Source: Rubidibacter lacunae KORDI 51-2
GTDB taxonomy: Bacteria; Cyanobacteriota; Cyanobacteriia; Cyanobacteriales; Rubidibacteraceae
Reading direction: 5' to 3'
NCBI RefSeq assembly: GCF_000473895.1
Contig: NZ_ASSJ01000079.1
Span: 1-64,000 of the forward strand
Length of the DNA: 64,000 nucleotides
Part shown: positions 33,287 to 53,727 of the stretch, piece by piece
Layout of the letters: each line of letters begins with the position of its first letter
Position numbering within the stretch: the first letter of the stretch is position 1
Notes under the pieces: model-generated
Told to the model about the DNA's origin: nothing
What the model saw: only the letters and a program-made list of their open reading frames with translations
Databases searched by the model: none
Made by a program: the position numbers and the translations under genes

Positions 33287-33603
33287 CGCGTTAGGCTCGG
33301 GTGATGAATAGTGAAGTTCAGATGCCAGCTTACAGCCTACCAAGATCTGCTTAACTAATTGCAATGATTCCGAAAGAGACCGCTGCGTCCGGCGATCCCT
33401 CCGCGCGACCGAGCAACGTTTTCCACCGCGAATGTTAAGGTCATTAGCAACTTAGTATTAGATTTGGTATTCGTAAGGAATGCTGGCAACCATTGGTTTC
33501 CATGCGCCAGAGTTCCTCTCCCGGCTTTCCGCTCGGCTACCCTGCTGTAGTGGTGGCAACCTAAAACTGAGCCATTCACCTGCTCTCTCTCACCGTGCCG
33601 CCG
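33287..33603. other. divergent promoter region of ndhB and topA
   Basis: About 315 bp between the two divergent starts. It is less G+C rich than the neighbouring genes, and no specific operator was recognised. Confidence 0.4.
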
Positions 33604-36432
33604 ATGTCTAAGCTCGTCATCGTCGAATCCCCGACCAAAGCTCGTACGATCCGCCAGTACTTGCCGACCGGTTATCGCGTCGAAGCCTCAATGGGTCACG
33701 TCCGCGACCTCCCAGCGTCGGCAGATGAAGTGCCGGCAAAGGTTAAGGGTGAAGATTGGGCAACGCTCGGCGTTAATGTTGCGGCAAGTTTCGAGCCGCT
33801 CTATGTCATCCCCAAAAAGAAACAAAAAGTTGTTAAGGAGTTGAAAGCCGCGCTGGCCGATGCCGACGAACTCGTATTAGCAACGGACGAAGACCGCGAA
33901 GGCGAGAGCATTTCCTGGCATTTGAAAGAGCTGCTCAAGCCCAAGGTGCCGATCAAGCGTATGGTTTTCCACGAAATCACTCGCGAGGCCATCCGGAAGG
34001 CGTTGAACAACTGCCGCACCCTCAATGAAGACCTCGTTCACGCCCAAGAAACCCGCCGCATCCTCGATCGCTTGGTGGGCTATACGCTTTCTCCGTTGCT
34101 CTGGAAAAAGATCGCGCCGGGGCTTTCGGCCGGGCGCGTTCAGTCTGTAGCAGTGCGGCTCCTGGTGCAGCGCGAGCGAGAAAGACAGGCGTTTAAGTCC
34201 GGAACGTACTGGGACCTTAAAGCTTTACTCGCCAAGGATAAAAGCGATTTCGAAGCCAAGCTCGTTTCCCTCAGCGGCAGGCGTCTGGCTACGGGCAGTG
34301 ATTTCGATGCCAGCACCGGTCAACTATCGGCCGGTCGCAACGTGGTGCTTCTCAACGCCGAGGACGCTGCCGCGCTTAAAGACCGCCTCGACGGTAAGCC
34401 CTGGTCGGTGAGTGCCGTGGACGAGCGGCCGACTACCCGCAAGCCCTCGCCTCCGTTCACGACTTCGACGTTGCAGCAAGAAGCCAACCGCAAATTGCGT
34501 ATCTCCGCACGCGACACGATGCGAGTCGCTCAGAGCCTTTACGAGCAAGGTTTCATCACCTACATGCGGACGGACTCCGTCCACCTGTCCGACCAAGCCG
34601 TGACGGCCGCGCGCTCGTGCGTCGAGCACAAGTACGGCAAAAACTATCTCAGCCCCAAGCCGCGTCAGTACAAAACCAAATCTAAAGGCGCACAGGAAGC
34701 CCACGAAGCCATCCGTCCTGCTGGTGAAACCTTTCGCACGCCCCAAGATACTGGATTGAGCGGTCGGGAGCTGTCGCTGTACGACTTAATTTGGAAGCGG
34801 ACGGTAGCGTGCCAGATGGCCGACGCCCGCTTGACCCAGACTAGCGTGCGCCTTCAAGTCGAAGATGCCGAGTTTCGCGCATCCGGCAAGCGCATCGACT
34901 TTCCCGGCTTCTTTCGGGCTTATGTCGAAGGGTCGGACGATCCGGAGGCCGCGCTCGAAGATCGCGAAGCCATTCTGCCGCATCTGGGCGTGGGCGATCG
35001 CCCCGATTGCCGCACCCTCGAAGCCCTCTCCCACGACACGCAGCCGCCCGCTCGCTTCACCGAAGCTTCTTTGGTTAAAACCCTGGAAAGCGAAGGCATC
35101 GGTCGTCCCAGCACCTACGCCACGATCATGGGCACGATCGTCGATCGCGGCTACGTGTTGATGCGCAATAGCACGCTGATCCCCACTTTCACGGCCTTTG
35201 CAGTCACTGGATTGTTGGAAGAACATTTCCCCGACCTTGTCGATCCGGGTTTCACGGCTCGCATGGAACAAACCCTCGACGATATTGCTACCGGGGGCGT
35301 GCAGTCGGTGCCCTACTTGGAGACTTTTTATTCGGGCGATCGCGGCTTGGAGAACCAGGTCAAGGAACGCGAAACCAACATCGATCCAGCAACAGCAAAA
35401 GCCATCTCGATGGCGACCCTGGAGGACGCGATCGTGCGCATCGGTCGCTACGGTCCATACGTAGAAGTTAAAGCCGACGGAGCGGAGCCAGTGACGGCAT
35501 CCCTCCCCGAAGACTTAACGCCAGCCGATCTCGACCCGGATCGCATTCAGACCTTGGTGCGCCAGAAGCTCGAAGGTCCCGACAAGGTGGGATTGCATCC
35601 AGAGACGGGCGAACCAATTTACTTGCTGGTGGGACGCTACGGCCCGTACGTGCAGCTCGGCGATAAAACCGAGACCAACAAGCAACCCAAGCGTGCATCC
35701 CTGCCCAAGGGCACGCCTCCCGAAGAGCTGACGCTCGAGCAGGCGGTCGGACTTCTAAAACTGCCGCGACTGCTGGGCACGCACCCGGAAACCAACCGCC
35801 CCGTGAAGGCAGGTGTCGGTCCTTACGGTCCCTACATCGTTCACGAGCGGGGCAAAAACGAGCAGGGCAAAGTCGTCAAGGACTACCGCTCACTGAAAAA
35901 GGAAGACGATGTGCTGTCAGTTGGGTTGGAGCGCGCGCTGGAACTGCTGGCGCAACCCAAGGCCGGACGCGGGCGCGGTACGAAACCCCCCCTGCGCGCA
36001 CTCGGCAACCACCCCGAAGATGGCGAACCCGTAAACTTGTTCGACGGCAAGTACGGTCCCTACGTCAGCCACGGGAAGGTTAATGCCTCGCTACCGGATG
36101 GCGCGACACCAGATAACATCACTCTGGAGCAAGCGATCGCGGCGATTGCTGCGAAAGGTCCGACTAAGTCGAGGAGCAAATCGAGCAAGTCGGGCAAGTC
36201 CACTGCAACAAAATCCCGAACCGTTAGCAAGTCTGCAAGCGCCTCGTCGTCGAAGACGACTAAGTCGACGGCCAAGGCAAAGTCTTCAAAGAGTAAGTCC
36301 TCGGAAAGTAAATCCTCAGCTGACAAGTCGTCGTCCAGCACATCTACTTCTACCAACGGTCAATCGGCGGACTCGACGGCGAGCAAGAAAACAACCGGAA
36401 AAACCACAGGGCGAAGCAAGAAAGTGACGTAA
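33604..36432 (+). CDS. topA: DNA topoisomerase I
   Basis: Type IA topoisomerase relaxing negative supercoils. The 942-residue protein begins with the Toprim domain ([17 protein letters not shown], and [14 protein letters not shown] near 99-112), followed by the catalytic tyrosine in [10 protein letters not shown] (about 319-328). In place of zinc ribbons, the C-terminus has four repeats with GxYGPYV (about 618-835), then an ~90-residue serine/lysine-rich tail. This tail is of cyanobacterial type and low complexity. I took the ATG at 33604; a GTG three codons earlier is in frame. Confidence 0.95.
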
Positions 36433-36442
36433 AGACAACGGG

Positions 36443-36515
36443 TAGTCCGGCACAGTGAGGCTAGCACAGGTGCAGAACCCTCATTTAGCATGCTCCTAGC
36501 CCATTACAAGCATCT
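36443..36515 (+). repeat. dispersed ~85 bp repeat family, copy B
   Basis: Begins TAGTCCGGCACAGTGAGG, contains GGTGCAGAACCCTCATTT, and lies 10 bp after the topA stop codon in the same orientation. The 3' half is more diverged than in copies A and C. Confidence 0.6.
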
Positions 36516-36614
36516 CATACCAACTCTAGGAAGTGCTGCGACAAATGGCAGCTCGGGAACTTTTACTCCCGGGGCTCGCTAGCACCATCTGTCTTAGGCA
36601 TTTCTGCAATTGGT
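36508..36614. repeat. ATACCAA-ended element, second copy
   Basis: Starts GCATCTCATACCAAC, the reverse complement of the right border of the element at 22061-22200, and ends with GCAATTGGTATCAC. The interior differs from the first copy except for the borders. Probably a decayed small element. Confidence 0.35.
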
Positions 36615-37189
36615 ATCACTTCAGGAAAACAGACAACTGATTCATTCTCGTGGGACGAGTTCGCCTACGCCGGCAGCATAGGTTTGTATTGAATCTCATG
36701 CAGCGGCCCGCGCATTGTCACCCAAGAGGCTGCCTGTGTCGTTCAGTTGTATTTGTCGGCATTAGTTCTCTTGCTACCAGTTGTTGCCGATGTCGTTGTC
36801 TTTGGGTTCTACGCCCTAATTGATTGGCCGGTACTCAAGCAAGTTTTTCAGAACTATTAGACCTTGGTAGCGCATTCGCAGAGCCTATCCAAGCTATTGG
36901 TTGCTGCAGCCGCTCAAAACACTCACCGCATCATCTGTTTGCAAGAGAGTGGCTGCACGCTGCCAAGAGCGATTCTTGGCACCATGAATGGAGTTGGATG
37001 GTCTCTGCAATGCACCATAGCGGCCTAGTCGGAATTGCACTTGAAATCGACTTTTTACCCGACTGTGACGCCTCTGTGCGAGCAGTTGTGGCAGTTGGCT
37101 TGGCGGCACTAGGTTGTGTGAAAAACTGGCAACTTTCGGCATTCAAGTCGGACTGCAACTGTTATAAGAACCGTCGAACTGAGCCATTG

Positions 37190-37623
37190 TGACGATATGT
37201 TTCCGAGGGTGTAAGGGGATGCTGGGAAGCGTTAACGTGAGGTTAAGGCACAGAGGAGCCGACAGGAAGGTTCCGATTAAGGATTAGGAATCGCAGCACC
37301 GTGCCATCCGCTCGATTCCAACGCAGCCCGAACCCGCCAATCCTCAAAAAAGGGTAGTGCATCTTCCTCAATAAGAACTTGATGCCGCCGTGCTCGATCC
37401 AAGCTCGATGTGAAGCTAGAGTTCGCGAGGAACGCAACTCGACCTCAAGCCAGGTTAGGCAACGTTGAAGGCGAGTAAGTTCTGAAGGGTTGTGGTTTAG
37501 TGTCCCATTACCGACTCGAAAGAAGAGTCGATTCATTCATTGCCAACCCAAAAAAAGTCAATCACACTTAACGTACTTCAGAAGGAGATAGGGAGCGAGG
37601 TTGCCATCAGCCTTGCTCCTTTT
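37190..37623 (+). repeat. duplicated ~430-bp element, copy 1
   Basis: Shares ordered blocks with 37873-38298: ATATGTTTC, AAGCGTTAA, GAGGTTAAGGCACA, CCGACAGGAAGGTTC, GTGCCATCCGC, GATTCCAACGC, GAACCCGCCAATCCTCAAAA, GGTTAGGCAA and CAGTCAATC-like ends. The copy ends in a GGAGCGAGG...CCTTGCTCC hairpin followed by TTTT (37592-37623), a plausible intrinsic terminator for a plus-strand RNA. Neither strand keeps a common reading frame between copies, so a structured RNA or dead element is more likely than a protein. Confidence 0.6.
37592..37623 (+). terminator. candidate intrinsic terminator, copy 1
   Basis: Nine-pair stem (GGAGCGAGG with CCTTGCTCC, one G-U pair) followed by four T residues on the plus strand. 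Confidence 0.5.
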
Positions 37624-37872
37624 CAGTTGCTCCGGACTTTTGCATTCGCAAACCCGAGAATTGGACGCGATCGTGGTTGCCATCCGAGGGTGCAGTGTCT
37701 GCGGTTTGTTTTGCAATGTACTGGCTCTCTATCAATAATCATTGAGCTGCTTTTAGGCAATCATGCAGAACGATGGAGACAAATAAATGAACCGCTTTAA
37801 CTCGTGCAAGCAGCTGTTGCTACGCAGTGCTCAATTGGCAAACGTTCAGCATGAGATTGCCGAGCAGCGATA

Positions 37873-38298
37873 TTGTGAAAATATGTTTCTGGGGTTGCAG
37901 AGGGGGCTAGAAAGCGTTAATTTGAGGTTAAGGCACAAGAGAACCGACAGGAAGGTTCTTAAGAATTTGGGAAATCGAGCATAGTGCCATCCGCTTGATT
38001 CCAACGCGACCCGAACCCGCCAATCCTCAAAAAAAAGGAAGCTCGTTTTCCTCAGCTGGTATCAGTACCGACTGCTCGAAGAGACATTAAAGTCTCTGGG
38101 GAGGGGCCACGAGGAAAGCACTCAACCGCAAGCCTGGTTAGGCAAGCTCGAAGGCGAGACAGTTCTGCAAGGTTGCGTCGTTGTTCTTATCGTTACCGGC
38201 TCAAACAGTAGAGTCGCTTCGCTCATTGTCAACTACAAAGTCAATCGAAACTTATAGCTCGAGAAAGGGCTAGGTTGCCGTCAACCTAGCCCTTTCTC
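37873..38298 (+). repeat. duplicated ~430-bp element, copy 2
   Basis: Second copy, about 680 bp downstream of the first and in the same orientation. Conserved blocks alternate with strongly diverged segments. The copy ends in a perfect 17-bp stem (38261-38298) at the position where copy 1 has its terminator-like hairpin; the stem sequences differ, but the location and pairing are kept, which suggests that structure rather than sequence is preserved. Confidence 0.6.
38261..38298. terminator. perfect 17-bp hairpin at end of copy 2
   Basis: GAGAAAGGGCTAGGTTG pairs perfectly with its complement around the loop CCGT. No T-run follows on the plus strand, so it may be a terminator, a processing site or a transcript-protecting end. 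Confidence 0.6.
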
Positions 38299-38564
38299 AA
38301 TTGCATTCGCGTTTCGCGCTGTATGTTTGCTGTCGCTTGGTTTCAATATCGATTCGAACCAGCGCAACTCGAGCCAATGGAGATCGCATTAGCTTCCTCG
38401 GAGATCGGTTCACCATCTCGGCCTCACGGCAAATGATTCAATTAGCAACGGATAGGGGACTAAGAACAATTGCCAAGATGGGCGTTCTGGGGCTCGCTTG
38501 TTTTTGACTCGGAATATTCGATCCTACCCCTCAAAACCATACCAAATCCAGAAAAAGAAACTTC

Positions 38565-38665
38565 AATGCACCTCGATCGAATCGCCCAAGACCGAAGGTC
38601 GGCACGGCGGAAGGCATTTGAGCTGCCGGAACGCCACAATCCGGTAAATTTTGATGTGCCCTTCA
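38565..38665 (+). repeat. dispersed ~95 bp repeat, copy 2
   Basis: Matches 1018-1115 in block order: CACCTCGAT, AAGACCGAAG, GGCATTT, CAATCCGG and TGCCC. An ATACCAAAT motif lies about 25 bp upstream. Confidence 0.5.
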
Positions 38666-38846
38666 TGTTAAGTACGCCTCTGGTCTCACATAAATAGGAA
38701 GCTTGTGGGAGTGCCCTCGCTGATAGCCTCTAGGGAGGAGGTCCCCTTCGCTCTGTTTGGTTCGTCGCAACTGTTAGATGACGGAACGAGAGACCTGAGC
38801 AGCATCGCGTCGAGCGATCGGTGGGGTACCGTATTTGCTCGATCGC

Positions 38847-40604
38847 TTACGGCATTACCTCGCCTGAGGGATTGCGGGCGATCGCCTGTGGGCTGCCCCA
38901 CAAAACCCGTTCGTGGGAATAGATTGCTGTGCCGGGAAGCGCACCTTTGGGTTTGAAGACGTGTTTGGGCTCGGTGTAGATCACCGGGACGCGATCGCCC
39001 TGCCGCGCTCGGCTGTGGAAAGCAGCGAGGTCTGCTGCAAATTGGAGATCGGCATCGTCAGGAACCGCACCGGGTGCGAGACGCAACAGCACGTGACTGC
39101 CGGGAATTTCTTGGGCGTGGAACCATAAATCGTACTCGACAGCTGTGCGGAAACTGAGGCGATCGTTTTGGCGGTTGTTGCGGCCGACGAGCAACTCGCA
39201 GCCGCTCGGTGCGCGATATCGTAAGGGCTGCGCCTCAGTAAGGTTGTCGGCATCGCCGCTATTGCGACGGCGATCGCGCGGCGAAATCAAGTAGTTTTCT
39301 TGAATTAACTCCGCGCGGATTTCTTCGAGCGCCTGCAGATCGTCGGGTGTCGTGTAACAATCGAGGCGCGCGAGCGCGGCTTCGACGCGCCCCAGATAAT
39401 CGGCTTCCGCGCGCACGTCCTGCAGCAACGGCTCGATAGCAGTGCGAGCGCGCTTGAGTTTCTGGTGGCGTTTGTAGAGAGCCTGAGCATTTTGAACGGC
39501 ATTCTTTTCGGGATCGATCGCAATCTCTACGGGCTTTCCCGTTGCGAAATCCGGTAGCGCGATCGCTGTCATTCCCGGCTGCCATTCGTGAAGATAAGCC
39601 ATGAGCAGATCGGCTCGCTCGCGATAGCTATCGGCATCGTTGGACTGCTGCAATCGTTCCTCAAAACGCCGGATCTTTTGCTCGATTTTAGTAGTTGCAT
39701 TCTTCACTTTCTGCAACAGTTGTTGGTGCAATTGTGTGAAGACTTGCCGTTCGAGAATCCGCCCGTAATAGCTCTGTAACAATGTCTGAACCGACTGCTC
39801 GGGTGCGACGCAATTCCAACCGAGGACCGTGTAACCGCCGTCCGTCCAGCCCGGAACAAATGTCTTGTTTTCCAAGGCACTTAACCACTCGTGCCAGCGT
39901 TCGTATAACAAGTGCCACTCGCCATCGTGGAGGTCGTCAGTCGAGCGGTCGGCATCGATGCCCACTGCCGCGCTCAGCGATCGCGCTAGGGTCGGACCGA
40001 CGCCGCGATAGCTTTTCAACAGCTGCTTCCAAAGTTTGCCCGGTACCAGTCGCACCCGATCGCGCCAGTCAGTGAAGGCCTCCTCACCGGTCGGCACGGT
40101 GCCCGTCAGCGGCGGTGGTGGTTCGTAGGGTTGCCCCGTCAGTACCGGCCGCAACCGCGACTGCTCGGGGGATACTTGGTGCGCGACCGTCACCACGTTG
40201 CCACCGGCATCCACCAACACCGTGTTGCTATACTTGCCAACGATTTCTACGTACAGGTGCCACAACACCGCATCGCCCGGCCGGGGGGCAAACTGCAGAT
40301 CGACCACCCGTTCCCAGGGGGCGATCGTGGCAATATCGACCAGGGCCAATCCGTTGACTTGGTGACGTAATTGCTCGCTGAAGGCAAACGTATCGGGCGT
40401 TCGCGGCGGCGGCTCGCCCACATGCAAGCGCGCGGCTTGGGGGTGCCAAGAAATCGTCAGCCAGTCCCGACCGCGCAGCGTCCGCAACGCGAGCGATAAC
40501 GTGTGGCGATCGCGTTGATAAACTTGCTCGGCGCGGGCAGGCAACCATCCCGCTCGAAGCTCAACTAGCACCGCGCTTAATGTGGTGAAATCTACTCCTT
40601 GCAT
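38847..40604 (-). CDS. NFACT family protein (RqcH/FbpA-like)
   Basis: A 585-residue protein with the NFACT-N domain (MQGVDFTTLSAVL at the start, then GKYSNTVLVD near 135), a helix-hairpin-helix and long coiled-coil middle (about 290-440) and the C-terminal NFACT-R domain (SGCELLVGRNNRQNDRLSF ... DLWFHAQEIPGSHVLLR). Bacterial RqcH recruits tRNA-Ala to stalled 50S subunits to add C-terminal alanine tails; cyanobacterial members are annotated as fibronectin-binding-like. The ATG at 40604 gives the family start. It is divergent from remA-gmk by about 200 bp. Confidence 0.88.
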   Translation of the reverse strand: MQGVDFTTLSAVLVELRAGWLPARAEQVYQRDRHTLSLALRTLRGRDWLTISWHPQAARLHVGEPPPRTPDTFAFSEQLRHQVNGLALVDIATIAPWERVVDLQFAPRPGDAVLWHLYVEIVGKYSNTVLVDAGGNVVTVAHQVSPEQSRLRPVLTGQPYEPPPPLTGTVPTGEEAFTDWRDRVRLVPGKLWKQLLKSYRGVGPTLARSLSAAVGIDADRSTDDLHDGEWHLLYERWHEWLSALENKTFVPGWTDGGYTVLGWNCVAPEQSVQTLLQSYYGRILERQVFTQLHQQLLQKVKNATTKIEQKIRRFEERLQQSNDADSYRERADLLMAYLHEWQPGMTAIALPDFATGKPVEIAIDPEKNAVQNAQALYKRHQKLKRARTAIEPLLQDVRAEADYLGRVEAALARLDCYTTPDDLQALEEIRAELIQENYLISPRDRRRNSGDADNLTEAQPLRYRAPSGCELLVGRNNRQNDRLSFRTAVEYDLWFHAQEIPGSHVLLRLAPGAVPDDADLQFAADLAAFHSRARQGDRVPVIYTEPKHVFKPKGALPGTAIYSHERVLWGSPQAIARNPSGEVMP

Positions 40605-40808
40605 CCCTCGCCCTCGGGTGAAATCGCCCAGTTCGATCCTCCTAAAGGAGGAGAATTGTCGCGAAAACACAGGCAATTGGTCGTAAATTTAACCAAATCG
40701 ACGAGAACCTCATGCTCGCTTAACTTTTCGATTGTAGAACTATTCATTATCGATACTATTGAGGCAGCAGCCCTACCCCGCCTTGCGAGCGTCCGCTCGT
40801 TTCTCTGA

Positions 40809-53654: not shown

Positions 53655-53727
53655 TGGAGCTAAGCGGACTCGAACCGCTGGCCCCCTCAATGCCATTGAG
53701 GTGCTCTACCAGCTGAGCTATAGCCCC
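53655..53727 (-). tRNA. tRNA-Ala (GGC anticodon)
   Basis: A 73-base cloverleaf: acceptor GGGGCTA with TAGCTCC (one G-U pair), D arm GCTCAGCTGGTAGAGC, anticodon stem CCTCA/TGAGG with loop ATGGCAT (anticodon GGC), T arm with GGTTCGAGTCC. The terminal A of the discriminator position is encoded, while CCA is not. Confidence 0.95.

Follow-up and report, generated by a model that had tools for sequence, protein, structure and literature searches.

The gene-free tract between topA and the NFACT gene of Rubidibacter lacunae holds two tandem genes that are, with high confidence and for family and fold jointly, distant members of a family of structured non-coding RNAs spread across the Cyanobacteria. 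Each copy is best explained as a stand-alone gene for an RNA of about 370–380 nt, and the account that we consider likely as a whole is that of a trans-acting, RpaB-activated structured RNA whose genes stand in tandem in the window, that is, in the analysed stretch comprising positions 1–64,000 of contig C79 (genome G000, 4.15 Mb).

The copies are direct repeats on the plus strand (37186–37625 and 37872–38302), flanked by topA (33595–36432, plus strand) and the NFACT gene (38847–40676, minus strand). They are 72% identical (E 2e-50) in a BLAST search of 37160–37640 against the whole 4.15-Mb genome, in which no third copy was found, the reverse query agreeing; the BLASTN check proposed in an earlier sequence-only reading of the tract thus leaves the pair alone in the genome. 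That reading had described two diverged copies with ordered blocks, no common reading frame and a hairpin at the end of each, and all of this was borne out. Four blocks of 68, 67, 56 and 44 nt occur in the same order at a constant spacing of 683–686, interspersed with freely variable stretches; the longest stop-free sense segments (41 aa in copy 1, 90 aa in copy 2) are unrelated in sequence; and both end hairpins are present, as a perfect 17-bp stem in copy 2 (38261–38277/38282–38298) and as a weaker, GGAGCGAGG-type stem in copy 1. Two of its views required amendment. The element of ~430 bp is indeed duplicated, but ~60 bp of it is promoter and the RNA proper measures ~370–380 nt. Similarly, the RNA is structured as proposed, but the end hairpins taken as the mark of this are best read as intrinsic terminators in both copies, and the main evidence for structure lies further inside (Table 1). 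Taken singly, the copies have modest fold z-scores (−2.7 and −2.2), the minus strand of copy 2 being equally good (−2.9), and RNAalifold on both copies yields hairpins and a long-range helix, a fold that cannot be proven from two sequences alone.

Table 1. Features of the two copies in the window, and loci of the upstream protein family in relatives
Feature	Position	Strand	Remarks
Copy 1 HLR1-like box (RpaB box, reverse orientation)	37186..37203	+	TGTGAC-N4-TGTTTC, 13/16, −61 to −44 from GG
Copy 1 −10 element TAACGT	37233..37238	+	8 nt 5′ of GGCACA
Copy 1 RNA gene, predicted	37246..37623	+	5′ end at AGGCACA, 3′ end at terminator
Copy 1 pseudoknot strand GGCAC	37247..37251	+	partner 37301–37305
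Copy 1 hairpin P3	37287..37319	+	GGAATCG/CGATTCC plus GC/GC; loop GTGCC 37301–37305
Copy 1 P4 5′ strand CGCAGCC	37322..37328	+	partner GGTTGTG 37488–37494
Copy 1 intrinsic terminator hairpin, then TTTT	37590..37623	+	sequence and RNAalifold fold
Copy 2 HLR1-like box TGTGAA-N4-TGTTTC	37872..37889	+	13/16, −60 to −43
Copy 2 −10 element TAATTT	37918..37923	+	8 nt 5′ of GGCACA
Copy 2 RNA gene, predicted	37931..38302	+	
Copy 2 pseudoknot strand GGCAC	37932..37936	+	partner 37984–37988
Copy 2 hairpin P3	37974..37999	+	ATCGAGC/GCTTGAT core; loop GTGCC 37984–37988
Copy 2 P4 5′ strand CGCGACC	38005..38011	+	partner GGTTGCG 38171–38177
Copy 2 terminator-like perfect 17-bp hairpin	38261..38298	+	clear T-run absent
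Upstream protein family	L198:4352–5350, L206:2872–3543, L210:4784–5476	same as RNA	

DNA BLAST with the window copies found no homologue in 60 relatives, 386 genomes of the phylum or plasmids. A covariance model of the two copies, R1, built on their 117 best-conserved columns, was searched against the 386 phylum genomes. Of its five other matches there, one is real, an intergenic locus in G383 (E 0.086) with a GGYAC strand and a hairpin with a complementary loop; L064, which lies antisense inside a protein gene, was rejected, as were the remaining three, the signature being absent from their alignments. A cobalamin riboswitch (Rfam, 32.5 bits) is located at L065:2603–2748, near a false R1 match. 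Pattern scans of the CCGAACCCGCC type returned 9 places in genome contigs and 48 in viral contigs, a chance level, and when R1 was run on these 57 loci plus the window the convincing matches were the two copies only. A BLAST search with the G383 region matched 54 of 100 relatives of G383 at one place per genome, mostly in family f33, which we take to be Nostocaceae-like from gene content rather than by name. Of 30 sequences 28 were usable for alignment, and the resulting f33 alignment gave a consensus fold and an RNA gene of ~340 nt. Applied to 39 family loci (130 kb), R1 produced nine matches at E ≤ 10, all on the correct strand and in register, seven from one genus and two (L118, L129) from others.

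Two further models were applied to the window and to the rest of the phylum. R2, a covariance model of the 3′ domain built from f33 only, detects the RNA in 36 of the 386 phylum genomes; the window copies were found neither by R2 nor by sequence-only profiles. R3 models 96 positions of the 5′ core, and its training set of 20 sequences excludes the window. Searched against all 64 kb of the window at E ≤ 10, it has only two matches (37243–37343 and 37928–38026), each with E 1.1 and each exactly in register on one of the copies. Weak as these E-values are, two sole matches that both fall in register are implausible by chance, and homology between the window copies and the family is accepted on this ground.

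Beyond the window, R3 matches at E ≤ 0.1 come from 54 of the 386 phylum genomes, and a search of 39 chosen genomes gave matches at E ≤ 1 in 10 of them. Sixteen weak R3 places were inspected, and 13 of them carry the full 5′ signature; at L173 the 3′ part remains but the 5′ strand is lost, and weak places L182 and L183 are false. Twelve R3 places from the 39-genome search comprise eight real members, including the already known L212 (= G019) and L218 (= G051), and the false L219, L220, L222 and L223. Members thus come from 17 families, that of the window included (f1, f4, f8, f12, f13, f16, f17, f18, f21, f23, f24, f32, f33, f35, f38, f40, f45), with f35, f38, f40 and f45 belonging to the same class as the window and lying outside its order. 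In the other eight genomes of the window's own family no member was found by pattern, R1 or R3 searches, an absence that means little since the same genome search missed the window's own copies; their pattern matches were rejected by eye where a −10 element or P3 was absent, two G003 matches lying outside this inspection, and their R1 and R3 matches were taken collectively, not one by one. A second tandem duplication occurs in G028 (f21; L131:82–708), both copies having the pseudoknot, P3 and the 3′ motif. Two loci depart from the common organization: at L173 (G264:C1:134700–136000, f33), possibly a broken copy, the 3′ part is intact and the pseudoknot strand and promoter are apparently replaced by unrelated sequence, and at L134 (G113:C1:2926000–2927200) the 3′ part seems interrupted by an insert 5′ of the GTCCACC motif.

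Evidence for the fold comes chiefly from hairpin P3 and from P4, a long-range helix directly 3′ of it. Both covary across 26 representatives in an alignment-free test that compares each sequence's own partner with the partners of other sequences. The own-versus-deranged pairing z is 7.9 for P3 (n = 26) and 7.4 for P4 (n = 24, L070 and L123 being dropped because their 3′ anchor pattern was unmatched), the latter becoming 4.9 without f33 (n = 16) and 3.5 with one sequence per family (n = 11), versus 0.3 for a control region. The structured RNA proposed from the window alone, a proposal that was to fall if covariation were lacking, is thereby supported. Counted pairs in alignments A6 and A5 are 97.3% and 89.4% paired, none of 500 shuffles being as high and slid controls giving 26–53%; the pseudoknot counts in both alignments lean in its favour because rows were chosen after a search for the pseudoknot complement, a choice in which P4 played no part. 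The window, L128, L130 and L131 are not among the rows of A6, either because they were held out or because MAFFT misaligned them.

The pseudoknot pairs 5′ GGYAC with GURCC in the P3 loop and is present in both window copies (GGCAC/GTGCC). Its pair at A5 columns 18/97 is UA in 9, CG in 8 and UG in 8 sequences, and GACAC/GUGUC is also present. In families found by R3, a model that does not contain the pseudoknot helix, it takes the form GGUAC/GUACC (f8a, f13), GGCAC/GUGCC (f4, f8b, f8c, f16, f23, f24, f32, f35, f38, f40, f45) or, with one G-U pair, GGCAC/GUGUC (f18). P3 stems are diverse in sequence (TTAGAGC/GCTCTAA, GTATTAGATA/TATCTAATAC, GATTAAAGC/GCTTTAATC), and that of copy 1 carries one mismatch. 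P4 reads CGCAGCC/GGUUGUG and CGCGACC/GGUUGCG in the window and, for example, CATAGCAATCAG/CTGATTGCTATG, GCAATATTTTTG/CAAAGATATTGC, CGCAACAG/CTGTTGTG and CGCAACG/CGTTGCG in relatives; in f33g, f4, f38a, f38b and f8c the best P4 run is short or elsewhere. A GUNNACCUUAGU motif 3′ of P4 was matched by a loose pattern in 24 of 26 representatives; the window copies do not clearly carry it, having only GTCAACT and GCCAACC further downstream. In f33 and f17 GGAGG looked, on visual inspection, as if it could pair internally with the P3 loop, but this pairing fails in other families and was abandoned.

The ends of the RNA are gene-like. TANNNT lies 6–10 nt 5′ of GGYACA in 28 of 28 sequences, window included, so that the RNA should start at GG or one base earlier; the element is mostly an extended −10 (TGnTAnnnT), those of the window being without the TG extension. 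Terminator hairpins recur in relatives as well as in the window. Measured from GG to the end of the hairpin, the predicted RNA is 332–344 nt long in 10 of 12 rows (one gene being listed twice), the other two giving 368 nt and, from a false start, 374 nt; the predicted length is 344 nt in G095 and ~370–380 nt in the window. In the proposed scheme the −10 element would start the RNA at (A)GGYACA, the pseudoknot would tie its 5′ end to the P3 loop, P4 would close the central domain and the intrinsic terminator would end transcription, the gene being duplicated in tandem in the window genome, where each copy retains its promoter and terminator hairpin. Decay of the window copies into pseudogenes of the family, to which the 28% of positions differing between them, the P3 mismatch of copy 1, the unclear 3′ motif and the missing clear T-run of copy 2 could point, is unlikely: the differences lie outside the conserved blocks, and the −10 element, HLR1-like box, pseudoknot, P4 and terminator hairpin are retained in both copies.

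The genes flanking the RNA differ between families, yet certain pairs of families have a neighbour in common, a metallophosphoesterase in f17 and f33 (71%) and an aminotransferase in f35 and f38 (83%), a pattern expected of a vertically inherited, free-standing gene rather than a cis element. A protein without Pfam match, encoded directly upstream on the same strand, is likewise common to f12, f17 and f38 (33–35% identity) and may be functionally linked to the RNA. That the tract might be a remnant of a mobile element or protein gene, or the long leader of a neighbouring gene, is suggested by its being gene-free and duplicated, but such an origin is the least probable of the explanations weighed, given the two copies only in the genome, the lack of a plasmid match by BLAST, the varying flanks in other families, the RNA's own promoter element and terminator, and helices maintained by compensatory change; an IS or protein-gene remnant, which the sequence-only reading had named as one outcome that would overturn it, did not come to light. 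Nearly as improbable is an mRNA for a small protein, in which the GGAGG of the Nostocaceae-like genomes would precede the code for a short, conserved peptide. GGAGG is followed by TTG in f33 sequences, but indels there are mostly not multiples of three (561 of 3355 pairwise cases are), single-base indels and stops break the frame between close relatives, the window copies have no common frame, and the GGAGG-TTG frame was not noticed in the other families inspected.

Comparison with known RNAs gave no identity for it. None of the Rfam 15 covariance models matches 36430–38850, even at an E-value of 10, and on 18 loci holding relatives (E up to 1) they gave one tRNA match, outside the RNA. RNase P RNA, tmRNA and 6S RNA, from which the tract had been set apart at the outset, were accordingly rejected: the RNase P RNA of this genome lies elsewhere (G000:C35:62677–63044, 266.8 bits), RF00010 being unmatched in the tract. 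The sole Rfam match in the window is a tRNA gene at 53655–53727 on the minus strand. 6S RNA, Ms1, GOLLD, ROOL and OLE are large structured bacterial RNAs that stand alone, several of them protein-bound; the family resembles them in being stand-alone and highly structured and differs in that Rfam gives no match. By description it can also be likened to Yfr1 and Yfr2, non-coding RNAs conserved over the cyanobacterial phylum, although Yfr1, in the portion of PMC4734099 available, is about 54–57 nt long with a CACUCCUCACACC motif, and to PsrR1 (SyR1), a cyanobacterial non-coding RNA tied to RpaB, although this measures about 130 nt according to the available text of PMC2662882. Together with RpaB, PsrR1 forms a feed-forward loop in which it prevents photosystem I transcripts from being translated (PMC13421787, available sections). 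Nearest in size are two sRNAs of Nostoc sp. PCC 7120, 4261534f (344 nt) and 268249f (340 nt), which the accessible part of PMC4734099 describes as having many homologues, by BLASTN only in heterocystous strains, and of which 268249f is very abundant and seen on Northern blots. These promoter-to-terminator non-coding RNAs of matching length are likened to the family by length and description alone, and their confinement by BLASTN to heterocystous strains contrasts with its wider spread; a Nostoc member may thus already be among published sRNAs. The family is apparently unnamed, a description of it, its fold, spread or promoter not being found in the accessible parts of the open literature searched.

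The RpaB site HLR1 is an 18-bp KTTACAWW-N2-KTTACAWW repeat, from which RpaB activates when the site lies between about −45 and −66, sites closer to the start being repressive (PMC13421787, in the text available); the atpT box lies at −45 to −60 (PMC9241938, likewise in part). Most families carry upstream of the RNA, at −62 to −45, an 18-bp direct repeat that matches the reverse complement of HLR1. It scores 16/16 in f23, 15/16 in f18 and f24, 14/16 in f4, f16 and f32, and 13/16 in both window copies, whose second half-site TGTTTC matches at 4/6; scores are only 8–9 in f13a, f40 and f21a, and f33 is among several families in which the motif is weak. When 34 promoters are scanned, the reverse box scores best with its 5′ edge at −62 to −59, where the mean is 12.03 versus 8.76 (sd 0.89) for all positions, and over 18 units (16 families and the two window copies) the HLR1 mean is 12.22/16 versus 8.50 (sd 0.33) in shuffles, contrasts that are optimistic since the motif was noticed by eye in the same promoters before scoring. 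The position of the box falls in the activating interval of RpaB (−45 to −66), which leads us to predict activation in low light. On this promoter evidence we lean towards RpaB control of the RNA: phosphorylated RpaB, on an HLR1-like box centred near −53, would probably activate transcription, with synthesis of the RNA expected in low light and expected to cease once the photosynthetic electron chain becomes over-reduced.

If the RNA acts in trans, as proposed, it could do so in either of two ways. That it is protein-bound, an RNP RNA rather than an antisense sRNA, we rate at even chances, favoured by conservation that is nearly all structural, a closed 5′ end and a covarying fold. A trans-acting antisense sRNA is possible though doubtful; its P3 loop (UCC/CCUCC) or GUNNACCUUAGU would pair with mRNAs near ribosome sites, in the manner of PsrR1 or NsiR4 but at greater length, the fold merely presenting the seeds. 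A CCUCC-like loop in most members and the recurring 3′ motif fit such a role, and RpaB-controlled antisense sRNAs exist, PsrR1 being an example (PMC13421787, available part). However, CCUCC is missing from the window copies (GTGCCATCC instead), as is a clear 3′ motif, the pseudoknot uses up part of the loop, and the conserved structure far exceeds what such sRNAs need.

Pursuing the protein-bound reading, we tentatively put forward a new class, namely a phylum-wide, RpaB-activated large RNP RNA with a pseudoknotted 5′ end, which would couple the photosynthetic redox state to a core process in low light and whose occasional tandem duplication would give two versions per cell. 6S RNA, which couples growth phase to RNA polymerase, offers an analogy. 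An RNA gene found in 17 cyanobacterial families and without an Rfam entry would rank among the phylum's widest-spread unnamed RNAs, and any member genome displays its landmarks in the sequence (GGYACA start, P3 loop, P4, and the HLR1-like box at −62 to −45). If the proposal is true, the low-light branch of RpaB regulation would gain an RNA output, PsrR1 acting, as far as the available sources describe it, on the stress side.
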